34,073 nt of DNA from Bacteriovoracaceae bacterium (GTDB lineage Bacteria; Bdellovibrionota; Bacteriovoracia; Bacteriovoracales; Bacteriovoracaceae), in contig JAGSHI010000028.1 of assembly GCA_023954635.1 (NCBI GenBank), forward strand, positions 1 through 34,073. The letters are read 5' to 3'. How positions within the stretch are numbered: position 1 is the first letter of the stretch; each line of letters starts with the position of its first letter. The position numbers and the translations under genes are program-made. Below, piece after piece: positions 5,563 to 25,312 of this stretch. Under the pieces are notes generated by a model that was given only the letters and a program-made list of their open reading frames with translations, was not told the DNA's origin and did no database searches.

Positions 5563-6141
5563 TTATTTCATTTTTTTAAGTAAACGATTAAAAGATTCTG
5601 GAGTCATCCCCAAATAACTAGCAACTTGATACTGAGGAATTTGATCGACTAGTTCTCCAAACCTCTCATAGAATTTCTCAAGCCTTTCACCCGCTGAAAG
5701 TTGCAGCAACATATACTCACGTTGCTCCTTCTCCATAAAATTTTCTTCGGCCATCTTACGACCAAGAATTTGCCACTCTGGAAACTCCTCCATCATTTGC
5801 TCATAGAAGGCATAATTAAAAGATAAGACCTTCACATCAGTTACGGCCTGAATAAAATAAAGACTCGGAACATCTTGTAGTATTTCGGCATACGGACCTA
5901 TTAAACCAGAAGGACCACGAAAGGTTTTTGTATATTCTCGACCATTTTCATCAAGACAATAATTTCTAACAACTCCCTCCATAACGATATAGAACTTTCG
6001 ATCCATAGAACCCGGACGAAGCATAAAGTCAGACTTTTTGAAATCATGGAAATCTAATTTGTTCTCAAACTTTTCCCAAGATTCCTTAGTAATAGGGGCC
6101 TTTTTACGAACAATTTCAAAGTAATCATAAAGTTTCGGCAT
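5563..6141 (-). CDS. Crp/FNR-family transcriptional regulator
   Basis: An N-terminal cNMP-binding-type beta-roll (about residues 30-120, with FYIVMEGVVRNY and a degenerate effector-pocket region) is followed by a dimer helix and a short C-terminal helix-turn-helix (QVASYLGMTPESFNRLLKK) with the Glu-x3-Arg pattern of Crp/FNR recognition helices. At 192 residues it is the short type in which the protein ends right after the recognition helix. It has no cysteine cluster, so it is not an Fe-S FNR. The ATG is at 6139-6141; its weak ribosome site lies inside an FNR-type palindrome (6145-6158), which suggests autorepression. The divergent neighbour is a fatty-acid hydroxylase, a candidate target. 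The effector is unknown. Confidence 0.85.
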   Translation of the reverse strand: MPKLYDYFEIVRKKAPITKESWEKFENKLDFHDFKKSDFMLRPGSMDRKFYIVMEGVVRNYCLDENGREYTKTFRGPSGLIGPYAEILQDVPSLYFIQAVTDVKVLSFNYAFYEQMMEEFPEWQILGRKMAEENFMEKEQREYMLLQLSAGERLEKFYERFGELVDQIPQYQVASYLGMTPESFNRLLKKMK

Positions 6142-6144
6142 ATC

Positions 6145-6158
6145 TTGACCTAGATCAA
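6145..6158. promoter_or_regulatory. FNR-type palindrome TTGAC-N4-ATCAA
   Basis: The 14 bases TTGACCTAGATCAA match the FNR consensus TTGAT-N4-ATCAA at 9 of 10 defined positions. The site starts 4 bp upstream of the ATG of the Crp-type gene and overlaps its ribosome-binding region, a position suited to repression. Towards the hydroxylase, a TAATTT at 6182-6187 would place a start near 6193 and the site centre (6151.5) at about -41.5, the classic activating position. Whether it is bound by the adjacent Crp-type protein or by the FNR-like protein encoded at 16504 is open. Confidence 0.55.
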
Positions 6159-16503: not shown

Positions 16504-17217
16504 ATGAAAAAGAAAGGTACAGCTACATGTGAAAACTGCCTATCAAGAATGAGCGGAGTATTCTGTGATCTTGAAAATGATGACCTAGCTACAATATCTG
16601 GGCACAAAGTCACAAACGTTTATAAAAAAGGTCAAAACCTTTTTGTTCAAGGAAATCATCCTTACGGTCTTTATTGCGTTAGCAAGGGGAATATCAAAGT
16701 TTCTAAAGTTGGAGCCGATGGTAAAGAAAGTATCGTAAGAGTCGTTAAAGGTGGAGATATTATTGGTCACAGAAGTCTTTTCACTGACCAAAACTACACT
16801 GCAACCGCAACTGTGATGGAAGATTCAACTGTTTGCTTTCTAGACAAAAAATTTATTATGAAGGCCATTCAGGACCTCCCATCTGTCGCCATGAACATTA
16901 TTGAAAAGCTTAGTCGAGATATGGGTGCAGCTGAGAATAAAGTTTCTTCGTTCCATCAAAAGAATGTTAGAGAGAGGCTTGCAGAACTTTTACTTCTTTT
17001 AAAAGAAAGTCATGGTGAAGCAACTGAAGACGGTAAGGTAAAGATTAATATCAAACTCACCAGAGAAGAGATGGCAACCATGATTGGAACTGCCAACGAA
17101 ACCCTTATTCGCTTTATTTCAGAATTTAAAGATGAAGGGCTAATTGAACAAGAAGGAAAGTTTATTGTTATTAAGGACGAAGATGCCTTAATGGAATGGG
17201 CTGACGTTAACCTTTAA
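16504..17217 (+). CDS. FNR-like oxygen-sensing transcriptional regulator
   Basis: The protein (237 residues) has a cysteine-bearing N-terminus (CENCLSRMSGVFC: Cys9, Cys12, Cys21), a cNMP-type beta-roll, a dimer helix and a helix-turn-helix (LTREEMATMIGTANETLIRF). Cys111 in STVCFLDKK aligns with the fourth cluster ligand of Escherichia coli FNR (Cys122), so a 4Fe-4S oxygen sensor is plausible, though spacing is C-x2-C-x8-C instead of C-x2-C-x5-C. In the recognition helix Glu and Arg are kept (NETLIR), but the FNR Ser is replaced by Ile, so the first base of the half-site may be less restricted. It stands first in a row leading into the cbb3 oxidase genes, the classic FNR/FixK target. Confidence 0.87.
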   Translation: MKKKGTATCENCLSRMSGVFCDLENDDLATISGHKVTNVYKKGQNLFVQGNHPYGLYCVSKGNIKVSKVGADGKESIVRVVKGGDIIGHRSLFTDQNYTATATVMEDSTVCFLDKKFIMKAIQDLPSVAMNIIEKLSRDMGAAENKVSSFHQKNVRERLAELLLLLKESHGEATEDGKVKINIKLTREEMATMIGTANETLIRFISEFKDEGLIEQEGKFIVIKDEDALMEWADVNL

Positions 17218-17293
17218 AAAAAACCAATAAATTTTCTACTAAAACCTGATTTATATTATATTTCCATTAGATCCTATTGGCTAAGATGGCAGT

Positions 17294-17677
17294 ATGAAAA
17301 AAACGAAATATCCCATCACAAGTTTAAAAACAGAATTAATTGAAAAGATTAAGTCTGTGGCACCGATTCATAAATACACAGTCCAATCTGATCTATTTTA
17401 TGAGGGTCAAACCCCAGTTGTTGCCTTTCTCCTTCTCGATGGTCACGTTCAACTCGTTAAGAATAAAAAGATCAAAAAAGTATTAAGCTTTGGTGACCTC
17501 ATTGGCCTTAAAGAATTAATACATCACCTTCCTTATCCTCTCTCAGCTCAAGTACTGCCAAACACAGAGATGGTCTTCCTTGATAAAAGTACTATTTTAG
17601 AAATTTTAAACCTTGTTCATGACCAGGAATTATCAGAAGTTTTCAAAGAAATTATCTCAGAAGATCAGGCCGTCTAG
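17294..17677 (+). CDS. Stand-alone Crp/FNR-type sensor domain without DNA-binding domain
   Basis: The 127 residues contain only a cNMP-binding-type beta-roll (about residues 25-105: FYEGQTPVVAFLLLDGHVQL, FGDLIGLKEL) and a short C-terminal helix. The dimer helix is short and the helix-turn-helix found in the preceding FNR-like protein is absent. The region after the stop shows no continuing HTH in other frames, so this looks like a compact gene rather than a fresh frameshift. The consensus cyclic-nucleotide pocket Arg is not evident. It lies 76 bp after the FNR-like gene and 125 bp before the stress-protein gene. It might modulate the FNR-like protein or bind a ligand alone; no function is proven. 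Confidence 0.75.
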   Translation: MKKTKYPITSLKTELIEKIKSVAPIHKYTVQSDLFYEGQTPVVAFLLLDGHVQLVKNKKIKKVLSFGDLIGLKELIHHLPYPLSAQVLPNTEMVFLDKSTILEILNLVHDQELSEVFKEIISEDQAV

Positions 17678-17735
17678 CTTATGTTAGACAACAGTCTTTC
17701 CCTTTATATAAACTGAAATCAATCTAATAATTTTA

Positions 17736-17751
17736 TGTGACAAATGTCATG
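17736..17751. promoter_or_regulatory. Crp/FNR-type operator, TGAC-N4-GTCA core
   Basis: The 16 bases TGTGACAAATGTCATG hold a perfect TGACA-AA-TGTCA dyad. They fit both a Crp-like TGTGA-N6-TCACA pattern (8 of 10) and an FNR-like TTGAC-N4-GTCAA pattern (8 of 10). A TAGGAT at 17773-17778 would place transcription start near 17785, with the site centre (17743.5) at -41.5, the usual activating position. The stress-protein gene and the cbb3 genes lie downstream. The site is well suited to the FNR-like protein encoded at 16504 (inference). Confidence 0.55.
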
Positions 17752-17802
17752 TTTTTTCACGCTCATGGGAACTAGGATGAGTGTATAGAAAGGAGTTAAA
17801 TC

Positions 17803-18243
17803 ATGAAAAATGTAGTAATCTGTGTTTCACTAAACGATGAGTGTTTAAAAAGCTTAGAGCACCTCAAAAGTGACCCTGTTCTCGACAATGCTCGCGTTCA
17901 TTTAGTTCATTGCTTTGAAGTTCAAGTCTACACTAGTGACTTTTCACCATATATTTACCCAACTGAAGAGAAGTACCCAGAAATTGAAGCTGCTTCATTG
18001 AAGATCCTAGAGGGTCTAGAAGCGAAACTTGGCCTGAATGGTAAAGCTGTTAAGAAGTGCTTCTTTAGTCAGTCTCCTAAACAAAGATTAAGAGACTATT
18101 TAGAGGAAGAGAATGCAGACTTATGTGTTTTGGCCACTAGAGGGAAACATGGTATTAAAGGATTATTCTCCAGTTCATTTGCTGAACATTTGGTTAAATA
18201 TTCTCCATGTAGTCTTCATATATTAAGACCTGAAGAGTCTTAG
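17803..18243 (+). CDS. Universal stress protein (UspA family)
   Basis: This single Usp domain of 146 residues begins with strand VVICVSLNDE and ends with the C-terminal nucleotide-loop region ATRGKHGIKGLFSSSFAEHL, which corresponds to the G-x2-G-x9-G(S/T) ATP motif with some deviation, followed by the usual VKYSPCSLHIL strand. GAAAGGAG is well placed before the ATG at 17803. The gene lies 9 bp before ccoI and downstream of a Crp/FNR-type operator, so it probably opens the cbb3 transcript. Usp genes are commonly part of FNR-type low-oxygen regulons. Its biochemical role here is not known. Confidence 0.88.
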   Translation: MKNVVICVSLNDECLKSLEHLKSDPVLDNARVHLVHCFEVQVYTSDFSPYIYPTEEKYPEIEAASLKILEGLEAKLGLNGKAVKKCFFSQSPKQRLRDYLEEENADLCVLATRGKHGIKGLFSSSFAEHLVKYSPCSLHILRPEES

Positions 18244-18252
18244 GGTAATAAA

Positions 18253-20691
18253 TTGGAGAGAGACAACCACACATATGTTACTGAGTCCTCGCTTGCATGC
18301 TCCCATTGTGGAGAGAAGGTTATCTCTGAATTTAAAAATTTAGATGATAACCTCCATGTTTTCTGTTGCTCAGGCTGTCGAGCTGTCTTTAACATTCTCT
18401 CCTCAAAAGGTTTAAGCGAATATTATGAATTAAAGCAAAAAGGTCCAACCTTTCGTGCACGTAGTCCTATTAAAGAGGTTCAAGAGTCTTATCGATATAT
18501 GGACTCAAAAGAGTTTGAAGAAGAATTTGCTAATTATGATTCAACCACAAAGACAAAGAGTGTTCGCTTTTATTTAGAAGGAATCCACTGTCTGGCCTGT
18601 TTATGGTTGCTTGAGAAACTTCCTGAAATTAATAGAGATGTAAAGTCATCCCGACTAGATTTAAGTTCATCAGTGTTTCATGTAACTGTGGATGAAAAGA
18701 GTTATCTCTCAAATATCGCCAGAGAGATTGCAGAACTTGGCTATCCTCCTCACCCTCTTTCAAGCAATGCTGATTTAGATGCTCTTGAAACAAAAGAAAA
18801 TAGAAAAGACCTTTCAAGGATTGGAGTCTCGGCCTTTTGTGCTATGAATATTATGCTTTACTCCGTTAGCCTCTATGGAGGTGCATCAGGAGCCTTTGCC
18901 TCAAAGTTTGGTTGGACAACATTTTTTCTTTCATTACCTGTAATGTTGTATTCGGCAATACCTTTTTATAAAAATGCATGGAGTACTTTGAAAAAAGGTA
19001 TTCCTTCTATTGACCAGCCAGTTGCCTTAGCCCTGATTGTTGGTACAATCGCTGGTTTTATTGAACTCTTACAAGGTAAGAATGAAACCTATTTTGATTC
19101 CTTAAGCGTTCTTGTTTTTCTATTACTTTTTTCAAGATACATTCTTAAAAAAGCACAGAAAAAAGGTCTCGACTCTTCTTTAGCTGGTAGTTTTTTTGGA
19201 AACTCTCAAACCAGGCGTTGGAACCCAGACAAAGGAACCTTTGAAGAAATATATTCACGTTTCCTAAAGAAGTCCGATCTTATTAAAGTTATGCCAGGAG
19301 AGATCTTTCCGGCAGATGGAGTTATGACCAAAGGAGAAACTTATGCTGATTTGAGTCTTCTCTCTGGTGAGTCTACTCCTCAGCAGTTAAACGTAAATCA
19401 AAATGTATTCTCAGGTACAACGAATCTCACCAACCCTGTCGAGATGAAAGTAGACTTTACTTCTCATGAAACTCGATTAGGAAAGATACTAGAAAAAATT
19501 CAAACTGATAGAAGTGAAAAATCGCCTCTTCTGACTACTGTAGATAAATTCTCTCATAAATTTATTATTTCTCTCTTTATCCTATCAGCTATTGTTTTAG
19601 CTATTAACTGGATATTGCTCGGAGCTTCAACTGCGATTTCAAGAACATTAAGTTTGATTATTGTGACATGCCCTTGTGCTCTTGCCTTGGCCACACCACT
19701 CGCACTTAGTAGAAGTTTAAATTTAGCGGCAAAAGCTGGAATAATTATAAAGTCCTTCGATGTGATTGAACGTATTGTAAGGGCCAAGAAAATCTTTTTT
19801 GATAAAACAGGTACTCTTACCTATGGAACTTTAAGTATTGACACTTGGGAAGACCTGACAAAAATAGATGTCCCTACAAAAGAGATCATATTCTCTCTTG
19901 AAAAACAATCTAAGCATCCTGTTGGAGTTTCTATTTACTCTCAATTAAAAGAGGAAGGTACTAACGAACTCCCTGTTACAGATTTTTTTGAACATGCTGG
20001 TCTTGGTGTTTCAGGCACTATAAATGGACAGACTTATCAAATTAAAAAACTAGACCAAAATTTCAAACAGGAAAACTTAAATACAGTTGGTCTCTTTCGA
20101 AATGATGACTTGCTTACAATTATTGGTCTAAAGGACTCACTTAGACCTGAAGCAAGAGATCTCATTGGCAAAATCAGAAAAATGAACAAATCGCCCTATA
20201 TTGTCTCTGGTGATAATGATGAAAATGTCTCAAGGATAGGTTCTGAACTTGGTGTGAATAGAGAGAATCTTTATTCAAATTACTCTCCAGAGGAAAAGCA
20301 CCAACTTGTTTCGAGTAGTGAAGATCTTATAATGATTGGAGATGGGGCCAATGATGCAATGGCATTACAGAAGTCTGACGTTGGAATTGCAGTAAGTGGA
20401 AGTGTTGAAGTATCACTAAGAGCAGCTGACGTTTATATTACGACTCCAGGAATTAAATCAATTTCGAATTTAATGGAGCTCTCGAGTGAGACTATTAAAT
20501 TAATAAAAAGAAATTTAATCATCTCAATTTTCTACAATTTAATTGGTGCAACAGCAGCTTCTATGGGTTTTATTACTCCACTAACGGCGGCAATACTGAT
20601 GCCAATTAGCAGCTTAACAGTTCTCTACTCTACAATTTATGGAACAGGCTGGCTTAGAAGATGGATTAAAACAACTGAGGTTACTCTATGA
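18253..20691 (+). CDS. ccoI: Copper-exporting P1B-type ATPase for cbb3 oxidase assembly
   Basis: The protein (812 residues) pumps copper for the maturation of the cbb3 oxidase. The N-terminus has the Cys-rich segment of CcoI/FixI (Cys16, Cys19 and FCCSGC at 37-42), then a heavy-metal domain with GIHCLACLW (Cys113, Cys116). The pump core shows SGEST (actuator), the intramembrane CPC (Cys473, Cys475), DKTGT with phosphorylated Asp517, the KHPVG nucleotide-site motif and GDGANDA at about 697. Start is TTG at 18253 with AGGG upstream, 9 bp after the stress-protein gene. Its stop overlaps the ccoS start (ATGA). The Cys-rich N-terminus plus the neighbours separates it from a general CopA. Confidence 0.96.
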   Translation: MERDNHTYVTESSLACSHCGEKVISEFKNLDDNLHVFCCSGCRAVFNILSSKGLSEYYELKQKGPTFRARSPIKEVQESYRYMDSKEFEEEFANYDSTTKTKSVRFYLEGIHCLACLWLLEKLPEINRDVKSSRLDLSSSVFHVTVDEKSYLSNIAREIAELGYPPHPLSSNADLDALETKENRKDLSRIGVSAFCAMNIMLYSVSLYGGASGAFASKFGWTTFFLSLPVMLYSAIPFYKNAWSTLKKGIPSIDQPVALALIVGTIAGFIELLQGKNETYFDSLSVLVFLLLFSRYILKKAQKKGLDSSLAGSFFGNSQTRRWNPDKGTFEEIYSRFLKKSDLIKVMPGEIFPADGVMTKGETYADLSLLSGESTPQQLNVNQNVFSGTTNLTNPVEMKVDFTSHETRLGKILEKIQTDRSEKSPLLTTVDKFSHKFIISLFILSAIVLAINWILLGASTAISRTLSLIIVTCPCALALATPLALSRSLNLAAKAGIIIKSFDVIERIVRAKKIFFDKTGTLTYGTLSIDTWEDLTKIDVPTKEIIFSLEKQSKHPVGVSIYSQLKEEGTNELPVTDFFEHAGLGVSGTINGQTYQIKKLDQNFKQENLNTVGLFRNDDLLTIIGLKDSLRPEARDLIGKIRKMNKSPYIVSGDNDENVSRIGSELGVNRENLYSNYSPEEKHQLVSSSEDLIMIGDGANDAMALQKSDVGIAVSGSVEVSLRAADVYITTPGIKSISNLMELSSETIKLIKRNLIISIFYNLIGATAASMGFITPLTAAILMPISSLTVLYSTIYGTGWLRRWIKTTEVTL

Positions 20692-20864
20692 GCATCATAT
20701 ATATACTTGCACCGATTGCCCTATTCTTAGGATTATTTGGAGTTGCTGCCTTCTTATGGGCCGTAAACAAAGGTCAGTTTGATGACTTAGAAACACCCGC
20801 AAATAGAATGTTAATTGAAGACGAACCAATAAATAAGAAAAATAACAAAGGAAAAGAGTTATGA
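20688..20864 (+). CDS. ccoS: cbb3 oxidase assembly protein CcoS
   Basis: This is a 58-residue one-helix membrane protein. It starts MSIIYILAPIALFLGLFG, continues to FLWAVNKGQFDDLETPANRM (the typical CcoS GQFDDLExPxxRML motif) and ends in a basic tail. CcoS is needed to load heme and copper into CcoN. The ATG overlaps the ccoI stop and its own stop overlaps the ccoN-ccoO start, both as ATGA, so translation is chained. The long charged tail after the motif (about 17 residues) is usual in length. Confidence 0.95.
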   Translation: MSIIYILAPIALFLGLFGVAAFLWAVNKGQFDDLETPANRMLIEDEPINKKNNKGKEL

Positions 20865-23041
20865 GTACAGAGCAAGTATCTCATCAAGGGGAGATGGAAC
20901 AGTTCTCCTATGATGATAAAGTTGTTAAAAAGTACATTCTAGCCTCTCTGTTTTGGGGTTTTGCCGCCTTATTAGCAGGGGTTACAATTGCTTTTCAATT
21001 ATCGAGTTGGAAGTTCAACTTTGGCCTTGAGTGGTTAACGTTTGGAAGACTTAGACCTCTCCATACGAATGCTGCCATTTTTGCATTTGTTGGGAATGCT
21101 ATTTTTGCAGGTGTGTTTTACTCACTTCAAAGATTAGCAAAGGCGAGATTATTTAACTCCTTTATGGCCAATTTTCAGTTTTGGCTATGGCAACTTATTA
21201 TTGCTGGAGGTGGACTCTCACTTCTACTCGGATACTCTCACGGTAAAGAATATGCAGAATTAGAATGGCCGTTTGATATTGCTATTGCAATTGCATGGGT
21301 TCTATTTGGAGTAAATATTCTTGGTACGTTATGGAAAAGAAGAGAGAAACATATCTATGTTGCGATATGGTTTTATATTTCTACTTTTGTAACTGTCGCT
21401 GTACTTCATATTGTAAACTCAATCGAGATTCCAGTAAGTCTTATGAAGTCGTATCCTGTCTATGCGGGTGTTCAAGATGCATTGGTTCAATGGTGGTACG
21501 GACACAACGCTGTGGCCTTTTTCTTAACGACACCATTTCTTGGTTTAATGTATTACTTTGTTCCTAAAGCGGCTAATAGACCTGTCTACTCATATAGATT
21601 ATCTATTATCCATTTCTGGTCTTTGATTTTCCTCTATATCTGGGCAGGACCGCACCATCTTCTTTATTCAACTCTTCCAGAGTGGGCCCAAACAGTAGGT
21701 ATGGTTTTCTCTGTCGCACTATGGGCACCGAGTTGGGGTGGGATGATTAACGGTCTTCTAACTCTTAGAGGAGCTTGGGACAAAGTTAGAAGAGACCCTG
21801 TTCTTAAGTTTCTAGCGACTGCAGTAACATTCTACGGGATGGCAACTTTTGAAGGCCCTCTCATGTCAATCAAGTCTGTAAACCATTTAGCTCACTTCAC
21901 GGATTGGGTTGTCGGACACGTCCATTCAGGAACTATTGGTTGGAACTATATGATGGTTGCCGGGATCTTTTATTTTATGATCCCAAGAATTTGGAATACA
22001 ACACTTTATTCTGTTAAATTAGCAAACTTGCAATTCTGGACTGCGACTATTGGGCTTCTCATGTACATGATGTCTATGTGGACAGCAGGTATCACTCAAG
22101 GATTAATGTGGCGTGCTCTTGATGATGGAGGTCGATTAGTCTATCCACAGTTTATTGAAACTGTTGTAAAAATTATTCCAATGTATTGGGTAAGAGCATT
22201 TGGTGGAGTTCTCATTCTCATCGGATTTATGTTCATGCTTTACAATATTTTTAAGACTATTCAACAGGCGAAAAAAGAAGAAGAGCCGGTTTATCAAGCC
22301 CCTGCACTTTCAAGTGCCAAGCCAGAGGCCCATGCTGGGACCCATAGAAAGCTTGAAGGGATGCCAATGGTTTTTACCATTCTCGCACTTCTTGCCATCT
22401 TAGTTGGATCACTTATAGAACTTGTACCAACTTTAACTAGCCATAAGTATTTGGCTCAGAAAACCTTCATGAAACCTTACTCACCTCTTGAGTTAGTTGG
22501 TCGCGATGTTTACATCAAAGAAGGTTGTTATGTTTGTCACTCACAACTCGTTAGACCTTCTCCAGATGAGTATATTCGATATGGAACTGTCTCTTTAGCA
22601 GAAGAGCATGTTTACGATAGACCTTTTCAATGGGGTTCTAGAAGAATTGGACCAGATTTGGCGAGAGTTGGAGGAAAATACAACCATATGTGGCATTACA
22701 AACATATGATTGATCCTCGAGCAGTCACCCCAGGCTCAATTATGCCTGTCTACGATTGGCTTGAAACTAAAAAGTATGATCATAAGACTCTTCGTAAAAA
22801 AATGAAAGTTATGGCCTCACTTGGTGTTCCTTACTCTGAAGACGAAATTGATAATGCAATAGAAAATGCAAAGGCCCAAGCCATGGGTATTGCAAATGAA
22901 CTTTCTGAAAGTGGTGTCTCAAAAGACATTGCTGATAAAGAAATGGTTGCATTAATTGCTTATCTTCAAAAACTTGGAGCTGATGTAAAACAAGCGATTA
23001 AAGATGGAAAAGTTATTGATAAAGCAGGAGGTGCCGAATGA
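20861..23041 (+). CDS. ccoNO: Fused cbb3 cytochrome c oxidase subunits I and II (CcoN-CcoO)
   Basis: The 726-residue protein joins two subunits. The first about 470 residues are CcoN, the heme b/b3-CuB core with about 12 helices: RPLHTNAAIFAF (low-spin heme b His), VQWWYGHNAVAFF and GPHHLLYSTLPEW (CuB and active-site region) and HFTDWVVGHVHSGTIGWN (heme b3 and b ligands). After a polar linker (about 470-500) one further helix anchors a CcoO domain with a single c-type heme: CYVCHSQLVRP (Cys556, Cys559, His560) and a Met ligand in SIMPVYDW. Separate CcoN and CcoO are the usual state; fusions of this order are known in several other lineages. The reading frame is uninterrupted. It overlaps ccoS and ccoQ by ATGA. 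Confidence 0.96.
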   Translation: MSTEQVSHQGEMEQFSYDDKVVKKYILASLFWGFAALLAGVTIAFQLSSWKFNFGLEWLTFGRLRPLHTNAAIFAFVGNAIFAGVFYSLQRLAKARLFNSFMANFQFWLWQLIIAGGGLSLLLGYSHGKEYAELEWPFDIAIAIAWVLFGVNILGTLWKRREKHIYVAIWFYISTFVTVAVLHIVNSIEIPVSLMKSYPVYAGVQDALVQWWYGHNAVAFFLTTPFLGLMYYFVPKAANRPVYSYRLSIIHFWSLIFLYIWAGPHHLLYSTLPEWAQTVGMVFSVALWAPSWGGMINGLLTLRGAWDKVRRDPVLKFLATAVTFYGMATFEGPLMSIKSVNHLAHFTDWVVGHVHSGTIGWNYMMVAGIFYFMIPRIWNTTLYSVKLANLQFWTATIGLLMYMMSMWTAGITQGLMWRALDDGGRLVYPQFIETVVKIIPMYWVRAFGGVLILIGFMFMLYNIFKTIQQAKKEEEPVYQAPALSSAKPEAHAGTHRKLEGMPMVFTILALLAILVGSLIELVPTLTSHKYLAQKTFMKPYSPLELVGRDVYIKEGCYVCHSQLVRPSPDEYIRYGTVSLAEEHVYDRPFQWGSRRIGPDLARVGGKYNHMWHYKHMIDPRAVTPGSIMPVYDWLETKKYDHKTLRKKMKVMASLGVPYSEDEIDNAIENAKAQAMGIANELSESGVSKDIADKEMVALIAYLQKLGADVKQAIKDGKVIDKAGGAE

Positions 23042-23220
23042 GAGATCAAGTACTGAATCAATTTGAACACCCATGGCTTATGGTCGTCGGTATGATTTTA
23101 TTTATCATGGTCTTCATTGGTGTCCTCTATATGGTCACTGGAAAGAAAAATAACTCTAGTTTTTCAGAAGCAGAACAATTACCTCTTGAAGATGGTCAGA
23201 AGATAGGAGGTGCGAAATGA
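23038..23220 (+). CDS. ccoQ: CcoQ-like small subunit of cbb3 oxidase
   Basis: This 60-residue protein has one helix (about residues 13-34, PWLMVVGMILFIMVFIGVLY) and a short charged C-terminal tail. Size, single helix and position between ccoO and ccoP identify it as CcoQ; sequence similarity in this family is low. It overlaps both neighbours by ATGA. It probably stabilises the oxidase complex. Confidence 0.8.
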   Translation: MRDQVLNQFEHPWLMVVGMILFIMVFIGVLYMVTGKKNNSSFSEAEQLPLEDGQKIGGAK

Positions 23221-23819
23221 GCACTGAAAATAAATCGGAAAACATAATTTTGGATGATGAGAAAGCACTCGTTCTTGATCATGATTATGATGGGATTCAA
23301 GAACTGGATCATCCTCTTCCTTCTTGGTGGATAGCGACCTTTGTAGGAACAGTTGTCTTTGGAGTACTCTATGGAATGTACTATCTTTGGGCCGGAGGTC
23401 TAACGCTAGAAGAAGAGTATGCTCAAGATATGCTGAAAATTAATAAAGCCAAAGCTGAGTTAGCATCTAAGGTCGATGTCTTTGATCAAAAAGCATATTC
23501 AACTTGGACAACAAAAGTAGGTCTAGCAAAAGGTGCTGAAGTTTTTGAAGAAAACTGTATGACCTGCCATGAAGAAAATGGAAAAGGCGATATTGGACCA
23601 AACTTAACTGATGAGTACTGGCTTCTTTCAGATGGAACAGCTGAGTCAGTTTACTCAATCGTAAACAAAGGGAATGAAGATAACGGGATGCCCGCGTGGG
23701 GAGAAGTTATCTCAAAAGATGAGATGTATGCCGCAACTGCATATGTCATGAGCATACAAGGTTTTGAGCATAAAAGTGGTGCTAAAGAACCTCAAGGTAA
23801 GAAAATACCTCGAAAATAG
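23217..23819 (+). CDS. ccoP: cbb3 oxidase c-type cytochrome subunit, monoheme CcoP
   Basis: The N-terminal cytoplasmic stretch contains the CcoP signature DYDGIQELDHPLPSWW, followed by one helix (about 39-60). The periplasmic part has one heme c site, CMTCH (Cys114, Cys117, His118), with GPNLTDEYWL and a Met158 ligand in NGMPAWGE. Standard CcoP is about 300 residues with two hemes; this one has 200 residues and only one CxxCH, so one heme domain is missing. The frame is intact and the missing domain is not seen in other frames, so the short form is probably native. It is the last gene before a strong hairpin (23827-23853). Confidence 0.93.
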   Translation: MSTENKSENIILDDEKALVLDHDYDGIQELDHPLPSWWIATFVGTVVFGVLYGMYYLWAGGLTLEEEYAQDMLKINKAKAELASKVDVFDQKAYSTWTTKVGLAKGAEVFEENCMTCHEENGKGDIGPNLTDEYWLLSDGTAESVYSIVNKGNEDNGMPAWGEVISKDEMYAATAYVMSIQGFEHKSGAKEPQGKKIPRK

Positions 23820-23875: not shown

Positions 23876-25312
23876 ATGAGAAAGCCAAATAAGTTTGAAA
23901 GACATGAATCTCGACTTGCTACGACAGATGAGCAGGGTCACAGAGTTTTTCTTTACCCGGAAGATGTAAAAGGGAAATGGAGAAATAAAAGAACAATCTT
24001 TTTTTGGTTTCTAATACTACTTTACCTAGTTCTTCCTTGGATTCACATTGGTGGAAAGCAATCTATTCTCCTTAATATTGCCAAACGAGAATTTACATTT
24101 TTTACGCACACTTTCTATAGTCACGACGCTCCTCTACTTATTTTTATTTTTCTAGGAATTCCCCTTTTCTTTGCTTTTGTTACAAGTATATGGGGTAGGG
24201 CCTGGTGTGGCTGGGGCTGTCCTCAAACTGTTTTTATCGATGCTATTTATCGACAGATTGAACTTTGGACAGAGGGTAAGTCCAGACAACGAGAGGCCCT
24301 AGATAAAGCTCCTATGAGTTTGCTCAAGGCCGCGAAGAAGTTATCCAAATGGATTCTCTACCTGCTAGTCAGTATGCATATAGCGCACTCATTTATCGGC
24401 TACTTTGTCGGAACTTGGGAGTTATATGAAATTACTCTTGCTCCTCCTAGTTCAAATTTTGGAATCTTTACTGCAACTTGGATTACAGTTGCCATTATCT
24501 TGATAGATTTTGGTTGGTTTAGAGAACAGTTCTGCATCATTGCTTGTCCCTATGGAAGAATGCAAAGTGTAATTATGGATGATCATTCAATGGTCGTCAC
24601 ATACGATGAAAAAAGAGGTGAACCAAGAAGGCTTTCGGAAGAAAGTAATAGCGAAAGCCCCGTGCTAGAGGGCGATTGTATCAATTGCTATCATTGCGTA
24701 AAAGTCTGCCCAACCGGAATAGATATAAGAAGAGGTACTCAGCTTGAATGTATTGCTTGCACCAATTGTATAGATGCATGTGATGAAATCATGACCAAAG
24801 TTGGAAAACCAGAAGGTCTCATTAGATATGATACAGAGCTTGGAAAACAAGGAGTTAAAGTTAAAAAAATTGGTCTTCGATCAATTATTTATTTAACACT
24901 TATGACAATCGTTTTTGGTGGCTTCATATATATGCTCAATCAACAAGATCGCTTAAGAGTAATGATGTTAAGAGGTAGTAAATCACCTTTTCAAATTGTT
25001 AGAACCACCGAAATAGAAGAAATTGCAAACCATTATAAAATAGCAATTGACTACAATGGTGAAAAAGTTCAAAAACTCTTTTTTATGATCAAGGACCCGG
25101 TGTTAGCGAAAGCTATCAGAGTTGCTACACCACGAGCGCCTTGGCAGTTAAAAAAGGGTCATAATAAAGCAAATATTTTTTTCCGCTTTAATAAAAAAAT
25201 ATTGATTAAGGGTAATAGAAAAATCATATTACTGATTAAGAATGGTGATACAGAAAAAGAAGCAACTCTAGTACTTGAACAGGAGGTAAACCTTGCAGGA
25301 CCTCTACGCTAG
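23876..25312 (+). CDS. ccoG: cbb3 oxidase accessory protein CcoG (FixG/RdxA)
   Basis: This membrane iron-sulfur protein of 478 residues is thought to reduce copper for delivery to the oxidase. N-terminal helices surround an intramembrane motif WCGWGCPQT (Cys111, Cys115), and a second pair lies in FCIIACPYGRMQ. Two ferredoxin-type clusters follow (Cys268, Cys271, Cys274, Cys278, and Cys292, Cys295, Cys298, Cys302), then a final helix (about 336-355) and a C-terminal Ig-like domain. All family parts are present. The ATG at 23876 follows the ccoP hairpin by 22 bp with no obvious promoter, so read-through transcription is likely. Its last 20 bp overlap the next gene. Confidence 0.95.
   Translation: MRKPNKFERHESRLATTDEQGHRVFLYPEDVKGKWRNKRTIFFWFLILLYLVLPWIHIGGKQSILLNIAKREFTFFTHTFYSHDAPLLIFIFLGIPLFFAFVTSIWGRAWCGWGCPQTVFIDAIYRQIELWTEGKSRQREALDKAPMSLLKAAKKLSKWILYLLVSMHIAHSFIGYFVGTWELYEITLAPPSSNFGIFTATWITVAIILIDFGWFREQFCIIACPYGRMQSVIMDDHSMVVTYDEKRGEPRRLSEESNSESPVLEGDCINCYHCVKVCPTGIDIRRGTQLECIACTNCIDACDEIMTKVGKPEGLIRYDTELGKQGVKVKKIGLRSIIYLTLMTIVFGGFIYMLNQQDRLRVMMLRGSKSPFQIVRTTEIEEIANHYKIAIDYNGEKVQKLFFMIKDPVLAKAIRVATPRAPWQLKKGHNKANIFFRFNKKILIKGNRKIILLIKNGDTEKEATLVLEQEVNLAGPLR

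Follow-up and report, generated by a model that had tools for sequence, protein, structure and literature searches.

The gene at 16504-17217 (+) in the 34,073-nucleotide stretch of DNA that we analysed (hereafter the window) probably encodes a low-oxygen activator of the Crp/Fnr superfamily that works in an FNR-like mode and belongs to a separate subfamily of Bdellovibrionota-type bacteria and Bacteroidota, in which the third cysteine of a predicted Fe-S cluster is movable and the operator carries the word CATGA. FNR is the textbook oxygen sensor, and its cysteine requirement and its reading of the outer operator base are classic questions; its oxygen-labile [4Fe-4S] cluster controls dimerisation, and it binds the operator TTGAT-N4-ATCAA in class II position. 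For the regulator described here, we infer the cluster and its type, the response to oxygen, the activation of transcription and the binding to the sites from comparisons of protein and DNA sequences.

The regulator and its gene neighbourhood

The regulator and the genes of the window that bear on its function are:

16504-17217 (+): Crp/Fnr-family regulator, 237 amino acids (Pfam, homologues)
17294-17677 (+): lone cyclic-nucleotide-binding-domain (cNBD) protein, 127 amino acids, with no DNA-binding domain and no cysteine (Pfam)
17803-18243 (+): universal stress protein (usp; PF00582, 1e-16)
18253-20691 (+): heavy-metal P-type ATPase, CcoI/FixI-like by its position before the cbb3 genes (domain search, context)
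20861-23041 (+): cbb3 oxidase CcoN-CcoO fusion (COX1, FixO)
23217-23819 (+): cbb3 oxidase CcoP (FixP_N, Cytochrome_CBB3)
23876-25312 (+): CcoG-like membrane ferredoxin (Fer4_18, Fer4_5)
5563-6141 (-): second short Crp/Fnr-like gene, 192 amino acids (HTH match below the Pfam cut-off)

The stretch 16504-17217 is a genuine open reading frame from ATG to stop with Crp/Fnr architecture, while its antisense strand contains many stops in the frame that we read. Pfam finds a cNMP_binding domain (PF00027, 8.7e-21) followed by HTH_Crp_2 (PF13545, 2.6e-19), both above their gathering scores, and this succession of a cNMP-binding domain and a Crp-type helix-turn-helix is the one that defines the superfamily. 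The Foldseek matches of the regulator are MtbCRP, GlxR and FNR; its AlphaFold model has a mean pLDDT of 77, with values below 50 for residues 1-7 and of about 60 for residues 11-30. The NCBIfam models for Fnr (81.2 bits against a cut-off of 228) and FnrL (88 against 300) are both missed. Relatives on named genome contigs come from Bacteriovoracaceae, Halobacteriovorax, other Bdellovibrionota and some Bacteroidota, and the host genome itself is Bacteriovoracaceae-like.

The first-pass annotation of this DNA had called the regulator FNR-like, and this is supported; classic low-oxygen genes lie beside it, with the cbb3 genes downstream. The lone cNBD gene follows directly 3' of the regulator gene in 29 of the 36 fetched loci, Bacteroidota included; one might speculate that its product modulates the regulator by pairing with it. 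Elsewhere in the window, the second Crp/Fnr-like gene (5563-6141) faces a fatty-acid hydroxylase gene (stretch to 6780), and an FNR-type palindrome, TTGACCTAGATCAA, lies between the two at 6145-6158. This palindrome may be read by the 5563-6141 paralogue, which has an E-S-F-N-R helix, and would then offer a natural contrast to CATGA.

Candidate cluster cysteines across the family

Five cysteines, at positions 9, 12, 21, 58 and 111, make up the complete set of the regulator, none of them C-terminal of 111:

16528-16539 (+): Cys9-X2-Cys12 codons, candidate cluster ligands (aligned with FNR Cys20 and Cys23)
16564-16566 (+): Cys21 codon, labile, alternative or fifth candidate ligand (92/163 family rows, 14 tree changes)
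16675-16677 (+): Cys58 codon, cNBD strand 55-61, favoured third candidate ligand (FNR Ala70; 149/163 family rows, 1 tree change)
16834-16836 (+): Cys111 codon, cNBD strand 108-114 (aligned with FNR Cys122)

It had been proposed in the first-pass annotation that the cysteines at 9, 12, 21 and 111, spaced CX2CX8C, replace the four ligands of FNR. All four are present in the translation at this spacing and amount to a full candidate Fe-S set, but the list overlooks Cys58, the more widely conserved of the Cys21/Cys58 pair. In a BLAST alignment with E. coli FNR, at 25% identity, Cys9, Cys12 and Cys111 are matched to Cys20, Cys23 and Cys122, the cluster ligands of FNR, and Cys58 to Ala70. Cys58 and Cys111 sit on the sensor-domain strands 55-61 and 108-114 of the AlphaFold model, which, going by the jelly roll of CRP, are presumably neighbours.

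We aligned 197 rows (60 of the homologues had been hand-picked from longer homologue lists) and read the residues at 9, 12, 21, 58 and 111. The patterns were CCCCC (78 rows), CC.CC (71), CCC.C (14) and CC..C (2), next to 22 rows with none of these cysteines and 10 with other combinations. Cys9, Cys12 and Cys111 thus occur together in 165 rows; the two CC..C rows among them are E. coli FNR (CX2CX5C) and L164 (CX2CX4C), which carry an FNR-type third cysteine. The remaining 163 family rows have both Cys21 and Cys58 (78), Cys58 only (71) or Cys21 only (14), and none lacks both. The third cysteine at X5 that marks the Gram-negative FNR motif is absent from the regulator, and its Cys21 is not conserved in the subfamily: the 71 rows without it have Lys, Ser, Ala, Arg or other residues in its place and keep Cys58. 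In a tree of 170 of the 197 rows (a quick tree with a simple model), Cys21 changed 14 times and Cys58 once. All 14 CCC.C rows stand on one side of a single branch (support 97); these Bdellovibrionaceae-like members have Thr or Ala at position 58 and a cysteine set of exactly 9, 12, 21 and 111.

The counts of tree changes and of rows favour Cys58 as the usual third ligand, with Cys21 as its substitute. The finding that one or the other is always present is a weak test of this, since Cys58 was lost only once, and the absence of rows with neither is no independent test, since the exchange of Cys58 for Cys21 is confined to one clade (14 rows, one event); independent quartet gains or losses were likewise few, with 1 pair on starred branches (97/99 rows). 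From these sequence patterns, the third ligand is more likely Cys58, and Cys21 an alternative or fifth one. The opposite assignment, with Cys9, Cys12, Cys21 and Cys111 binding the cluster and Cys58 as a bystander or a structural residue, agrees with the retention of Cys21 in nearly all Bacteriovoracales rows and describes the Bdellovibrionaceae-like clade exactly, so that the proposed third ligand holds for these 14 members. We nevertheless regard it as unlikely for the family, in which Cys21 is missing from 71 of the 163 rows, all of which keep Cys58, while Cys58 is missing from only 14, and in which Cys21 changed 14 times against the single change of Cys58. A role for Cys58 as the sole third ligand, with Cys21 irrelevant, was also considered, and is overturned by the Bdellovibrionaceae-like rows, which have Cys21 and no Cys58. 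Proteins with all five cysteines, the window protein among them, may represent an unfinished swap of ligands, or one ligand may replace another while oxygen converts the cluster.

The conservation of the cysteines would fit equally well if they bound zinc or acted as a thiol/disulphide switch that senses redox conditions or oxidative stress with no cluster at all, and FixK2, a member of the same family, reacts through a single cysteine according to the available part of PMC12937710. This seems rather improbable to us, given that Cys9, Cys12 and Cys111 align with the cluster ligands of FNR and that the neighbours and predicted targets (cbb3 oxidase, metal ATPase, [NiFe] hydrogenase) are low-oxygen functions. 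An Fe-S cluster with Cys58 as its usual third ligand is the reading that we carry forward.

Two further groups stood out in the alignment. In L157 and L158, which are Bacteroidota sequences found among cysteine-bearing homologues, all candidate ligands are gone together, and they are possibly cluster-free descendants. A related group (L026, L027, L031, L159-L163, L166) has open frames of about 350-370 amino acids with an extra N-terminal part before the Crp/Fnr region and lacks the N-terminal cysteines.

Recognition helix and operator word

The DNA-reading elements of the window comprise the recognition helix and two predicted operators with their promoters:

17095-17112 (+): recognition helix N198-E199-T200-L201-I202-R203 (alignment, BLAST against FNR)
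17241-17264 (+): predicted operator preceding the lone cNBD gene, AAAACCTGATTTATATTATATTTC, core 17247-17258 (matrix score 16.0, the best of the window)
17282-17287 (+): predicted -10 TAAGAT, class II spacing, offset 23 (as in 23/30 loci)
17732-17755 (+): predicted operator upstream of usp, TTTATGTGACAAATGTCATGTTTT, core 17738-17749 (matrix score 13.7, orthologous place)
17773-17778 (+): predicted -10 TAGGAT, site centre at about -41.5 (sequence, 40-site comparison)

A helix with Glu and Arg, but with Ile at the Ser position of FNR, had been noticed before, and the alignment bears this out: E199 and R203 are in place and I202 is aligned with Ser212, giving E-x-x-I-R where FNR has E-x-x-S-R. 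To regard the Ile as an unusual alteration is mistaken, however, as it is the family norm (153/165 rows) in a helix that is near constant (E199 in 165/165, R203 in 164/165). The expected consequence of that alteration, a relaxed reading of the outer base, does not agree with the operators either.

The core TGAN6TCA occurs at 1.68 per kb between the open reading frames of the window and 36 loci and at 0.55 per kb within them, a threefold difference. We collected 40 orthologous sites, 24 upstream of the regulator gene and 16 upstream of usp or the ATPase gene, by requiring an exact core in one of these two places; the window, L035, L039, L041, L051, L054 and the Bacteroidota loci have no such core in the upstream place and contributed no site there, and the second sites of L038, L043 and L060 were omitted. 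The promoter-proximal half reads ATGA in 37 of the 40 sites, mostly as CATGA, and never TTGA (as for FNR) or GTGA (as for CRP); its outer base is A in 37 and C in 3. The distal half is more varied at this position (C 18, A 16, G 5, T 1). The 210 TGAN6TCA sites in all coding open reading frames of the window and the 36 loci served as controls: outer A was found in 37/40 proximal halves against 138/420 control halves (Fisher 7e-14), and outer T in 1/80 halves against 164/420 (Fisher 3e-14). With the smaller control of sites inside the regulator open reading frames, which number only 10, the outer-base test gave p = 0.09. By these base counts, DNA reading in the family is shifted to CATGA rather than relaxed, and looseness is found in the distal half only.

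The same word is present in Bacteroidota and in other Bdellovibrionota-type loci. Among 141 sites within 250 bases of family genes, the outer base was A in 185 of 282 halves, C in 52, T in 29 and G in 16, and the group with Cys21 only had A in 18/18 halves of its 9 sites near the gene. Genome-wide counts were rejected as proof of the outer base: with up to one mismatch, the 25 family genomes contain 83 A-type and 86 T-type matches (reversed-pattern controls, 34 and 76, respectively), totals that do not separate the two words. The symmetric form ACATGAYN4RTCATGT was likewise dismissed as the word of this species, having no exact match in the host genome and matches in only 4 of 39 searched genomes, so we worked with the asymmetric form instead.

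A matrix built from 36 of the 40 sites (the window, L035 and some others omitted) located a third place, in the gap that separates the lone cNBD gene from the regulator gene. All 30 of 30 loci have a site there (no value above 0.015 when compared with 200 shuffles), with a proximal triplet TTA in 21/30 and outer base A in 28/30. At offset 22-23, 28-29 of the 40 sites are accompanied by a -10-like hexamer (maximum in 1000 shuffles, 12/40), and the third-place sites have one at offset 23 in 23/30. Such a -10-like element at fixed spacing, which places the site centre near -41, implies class II activation, as far as promoter sequence can tell.

The window's third-place site (17241-17264) had escaped the first-pass annotation, which singled out a site at 17736-17751 as having exactly one changed outer base, GTGAC for TTGAC. 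The sequence there is TGTGACAAATGTCATG, and its outer base does differ from that of FNR; it is not just one base that is changed, though, since the left half is GTGAC, the right half gives CATGAC when taken as a half-site and neither has the T of FNR. Both window sites score low (13.7 and 16.0) next to the training sites (12.1 to 31.5), and shuffled windows reached these scores in 4/30 cases for 17732-17755 and in 2/30 for 17241-17264. By score alone the usp site is no better than chance in the window, and its support is positional and comparative; judged by its sequence, it is a weak copy of the family word. The matrix scan recognised no site in the window upstream of the regulator gene, where most relatives have one, or upstream of ccoNO. 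With the predicted -10 at 17282, transcription of the lone cNBD gene would begin at about 17294, directly on its ATG, and this points to an mRNA without a leader or to a start codon that has been wrongly placed.

In five Bacteroidota genomes, the exact word AACATGAYN4RTCATGTT occurs 7 times. Three copies are seed sites beside the regulator gene, one non-seed copy lies before the gene for a [NiFe]-hydrogenase small subunit and another before a gene with no assigned function. The other two of the 7 represent a single site shared by closely related genomes, where it precedes a gene of unassigned function that is followed by a Cu-ATPase-like open reading frame. One-mismatch copies precede a usp gene and ccoN in Bacteroidota; with up to two mismatches, the Bacteroidota counts were not above the reversed-pattern control in 3/5 genomes. 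In the Roseivirga loci (L064, L065, L068), two palindromes, 22 bases apart, lie about 15 and 37 bases past the regulator stop, the second being TGATRCCMATCA, an arrangement as if two dimers sat on one face of the DNA; the gene that follows the seed sites of Roseivirga had no Pfam match in the one copy scanned (L126).

CATGA sites could in principle be read by a different Crp/Fnr protein, as the genome contains further Crp/Fnr-like open reading frames, the one at 5563-6141 in the window among them. We consider this about as improbable as the cluster-free switch: the sites occupy three fixed places around the regulator gene in Bacteriovoracales, lie near it in Bacteroidota and Bdellovibrionaceae-like bacteria and so track the gene across far lineages, and E199, I202 and R203 are nearly constant in the family. 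The subfamily regulator remains our preferred reader of these sites.

Proposed mechanism and known systems

When oxygen is scarce, Cys9-X2-Cys12, Cys111 and a third cysteine (Cys58 in most members, Cys21 in the Bdellovibrionaceae-like ones and either in the window protein) would hold an oxygen-labile Fe-S cluster, most likely [4Fe-4S], that maintains the dimer in a state able to bind DNA. This dimer would read an asymmetric palindrome, approximately AAN(C/A)TGATNTANRTCATGTTTT, with CATGA as the strong half, in class II position about 41 bases ahead of the start of transcription. It would thereby switch on the lone cNBD gene, the usp-ATPase promoter that leads towards the cbb3 oxidase and, in most relatives, the regulator's own gene as well.

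The regulator resembles FNR of E. coli and Aliivibrio fischeri in its two-domain fold, the N-terminal CX2C and the central cysteine in the same places, the Glu and Arg of the recognition helix, the TGAN6TCA core, the low-oxygen genes and the predicted class II position. It differs in its overall sequence (25% identity), in CX2CX8C without the third cysteine at X5, in Cys58 for Ala70 and Ile for Ser212, and in CATGA for TTGA(T). Judged by motif, helix, operator and NCBIfam score, it is not an FNR orthologue; the sequence comparisons suggest a further version of the FNR-type sensor with another third-cysteine position and another DNA word. E. coli CRP shares the fold, the TGA/TCA core and the Glu and Arg of the helix, but the Arg-Ser pair with which it binds cAMP (Arg82-Ser83) corresponds to Tyr98-Thr99 in the regulator, and the outer base here is A, not G. 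Bacillus Fnr, a superfamily member that, like the regulator, lacks the Gram-negative motif, senses oxygen with an Fe-S cluster (PMC12937710, available part), but this cluster is C-terminal, whereas the regulator has no cysteine past 111. The closest solved sequence is PgCRP of the Bacteroidota species Porphyromonas gingivalis (PDB 2GAU; phmmer 5.6e-26), described as effector-independent in the part of PMC12937710 at hand; the match starts at residue 40, so the N-terminal CX2C is outside it.

The accessible text of that 2026 structural review lists Gram-negative FNR, Gram-positive FNR and FixK2 as the ligand-free oxygen sensors of the family. More tentatively, we propose that the subfamily represents a third mode of cluster holding in the Crp/Fnr superfamily, by Cys9, Cys12 and the neighbouring-strand Cys58 and Cys111 with an interchangeable Cys21, in a CATGA-reading cbb3 activator of Bacteroidota. 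Homologues from Flavobacteriales and Saprospiraceae, which may or may not belong to the subfamily, are assigned to carbon sensing in the excerpted text of PMC8510549; PMC9723704 describes an induction of cbb3 when oxygen is limiting, and the term 'Crp' does not occur in its available portion, and these portions of the two papers name no cluster-type FNR in such organisms. Searches of an open-licence paper library brought up neither this ligand set nor a CATGA operator.

If our reading is true, one ligand has been relocated in a widespread subfamily, out of the N-terminal loop and into the sensor domain, which would show how the position of a cluster can change while its function is preserved; members carrying both Cys21 and Cys58 would be natural intermediates, and the family would supply natural mutants. 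In many Bacteroidota, the subfamily would provide a hitherto unassigned activator of the cbb3 genes at low oxygen, with CATGA as its own operator word, and this word would make it possible to predict low-oxygen regulons in Bacteroidota as well as in predatory bacteria.
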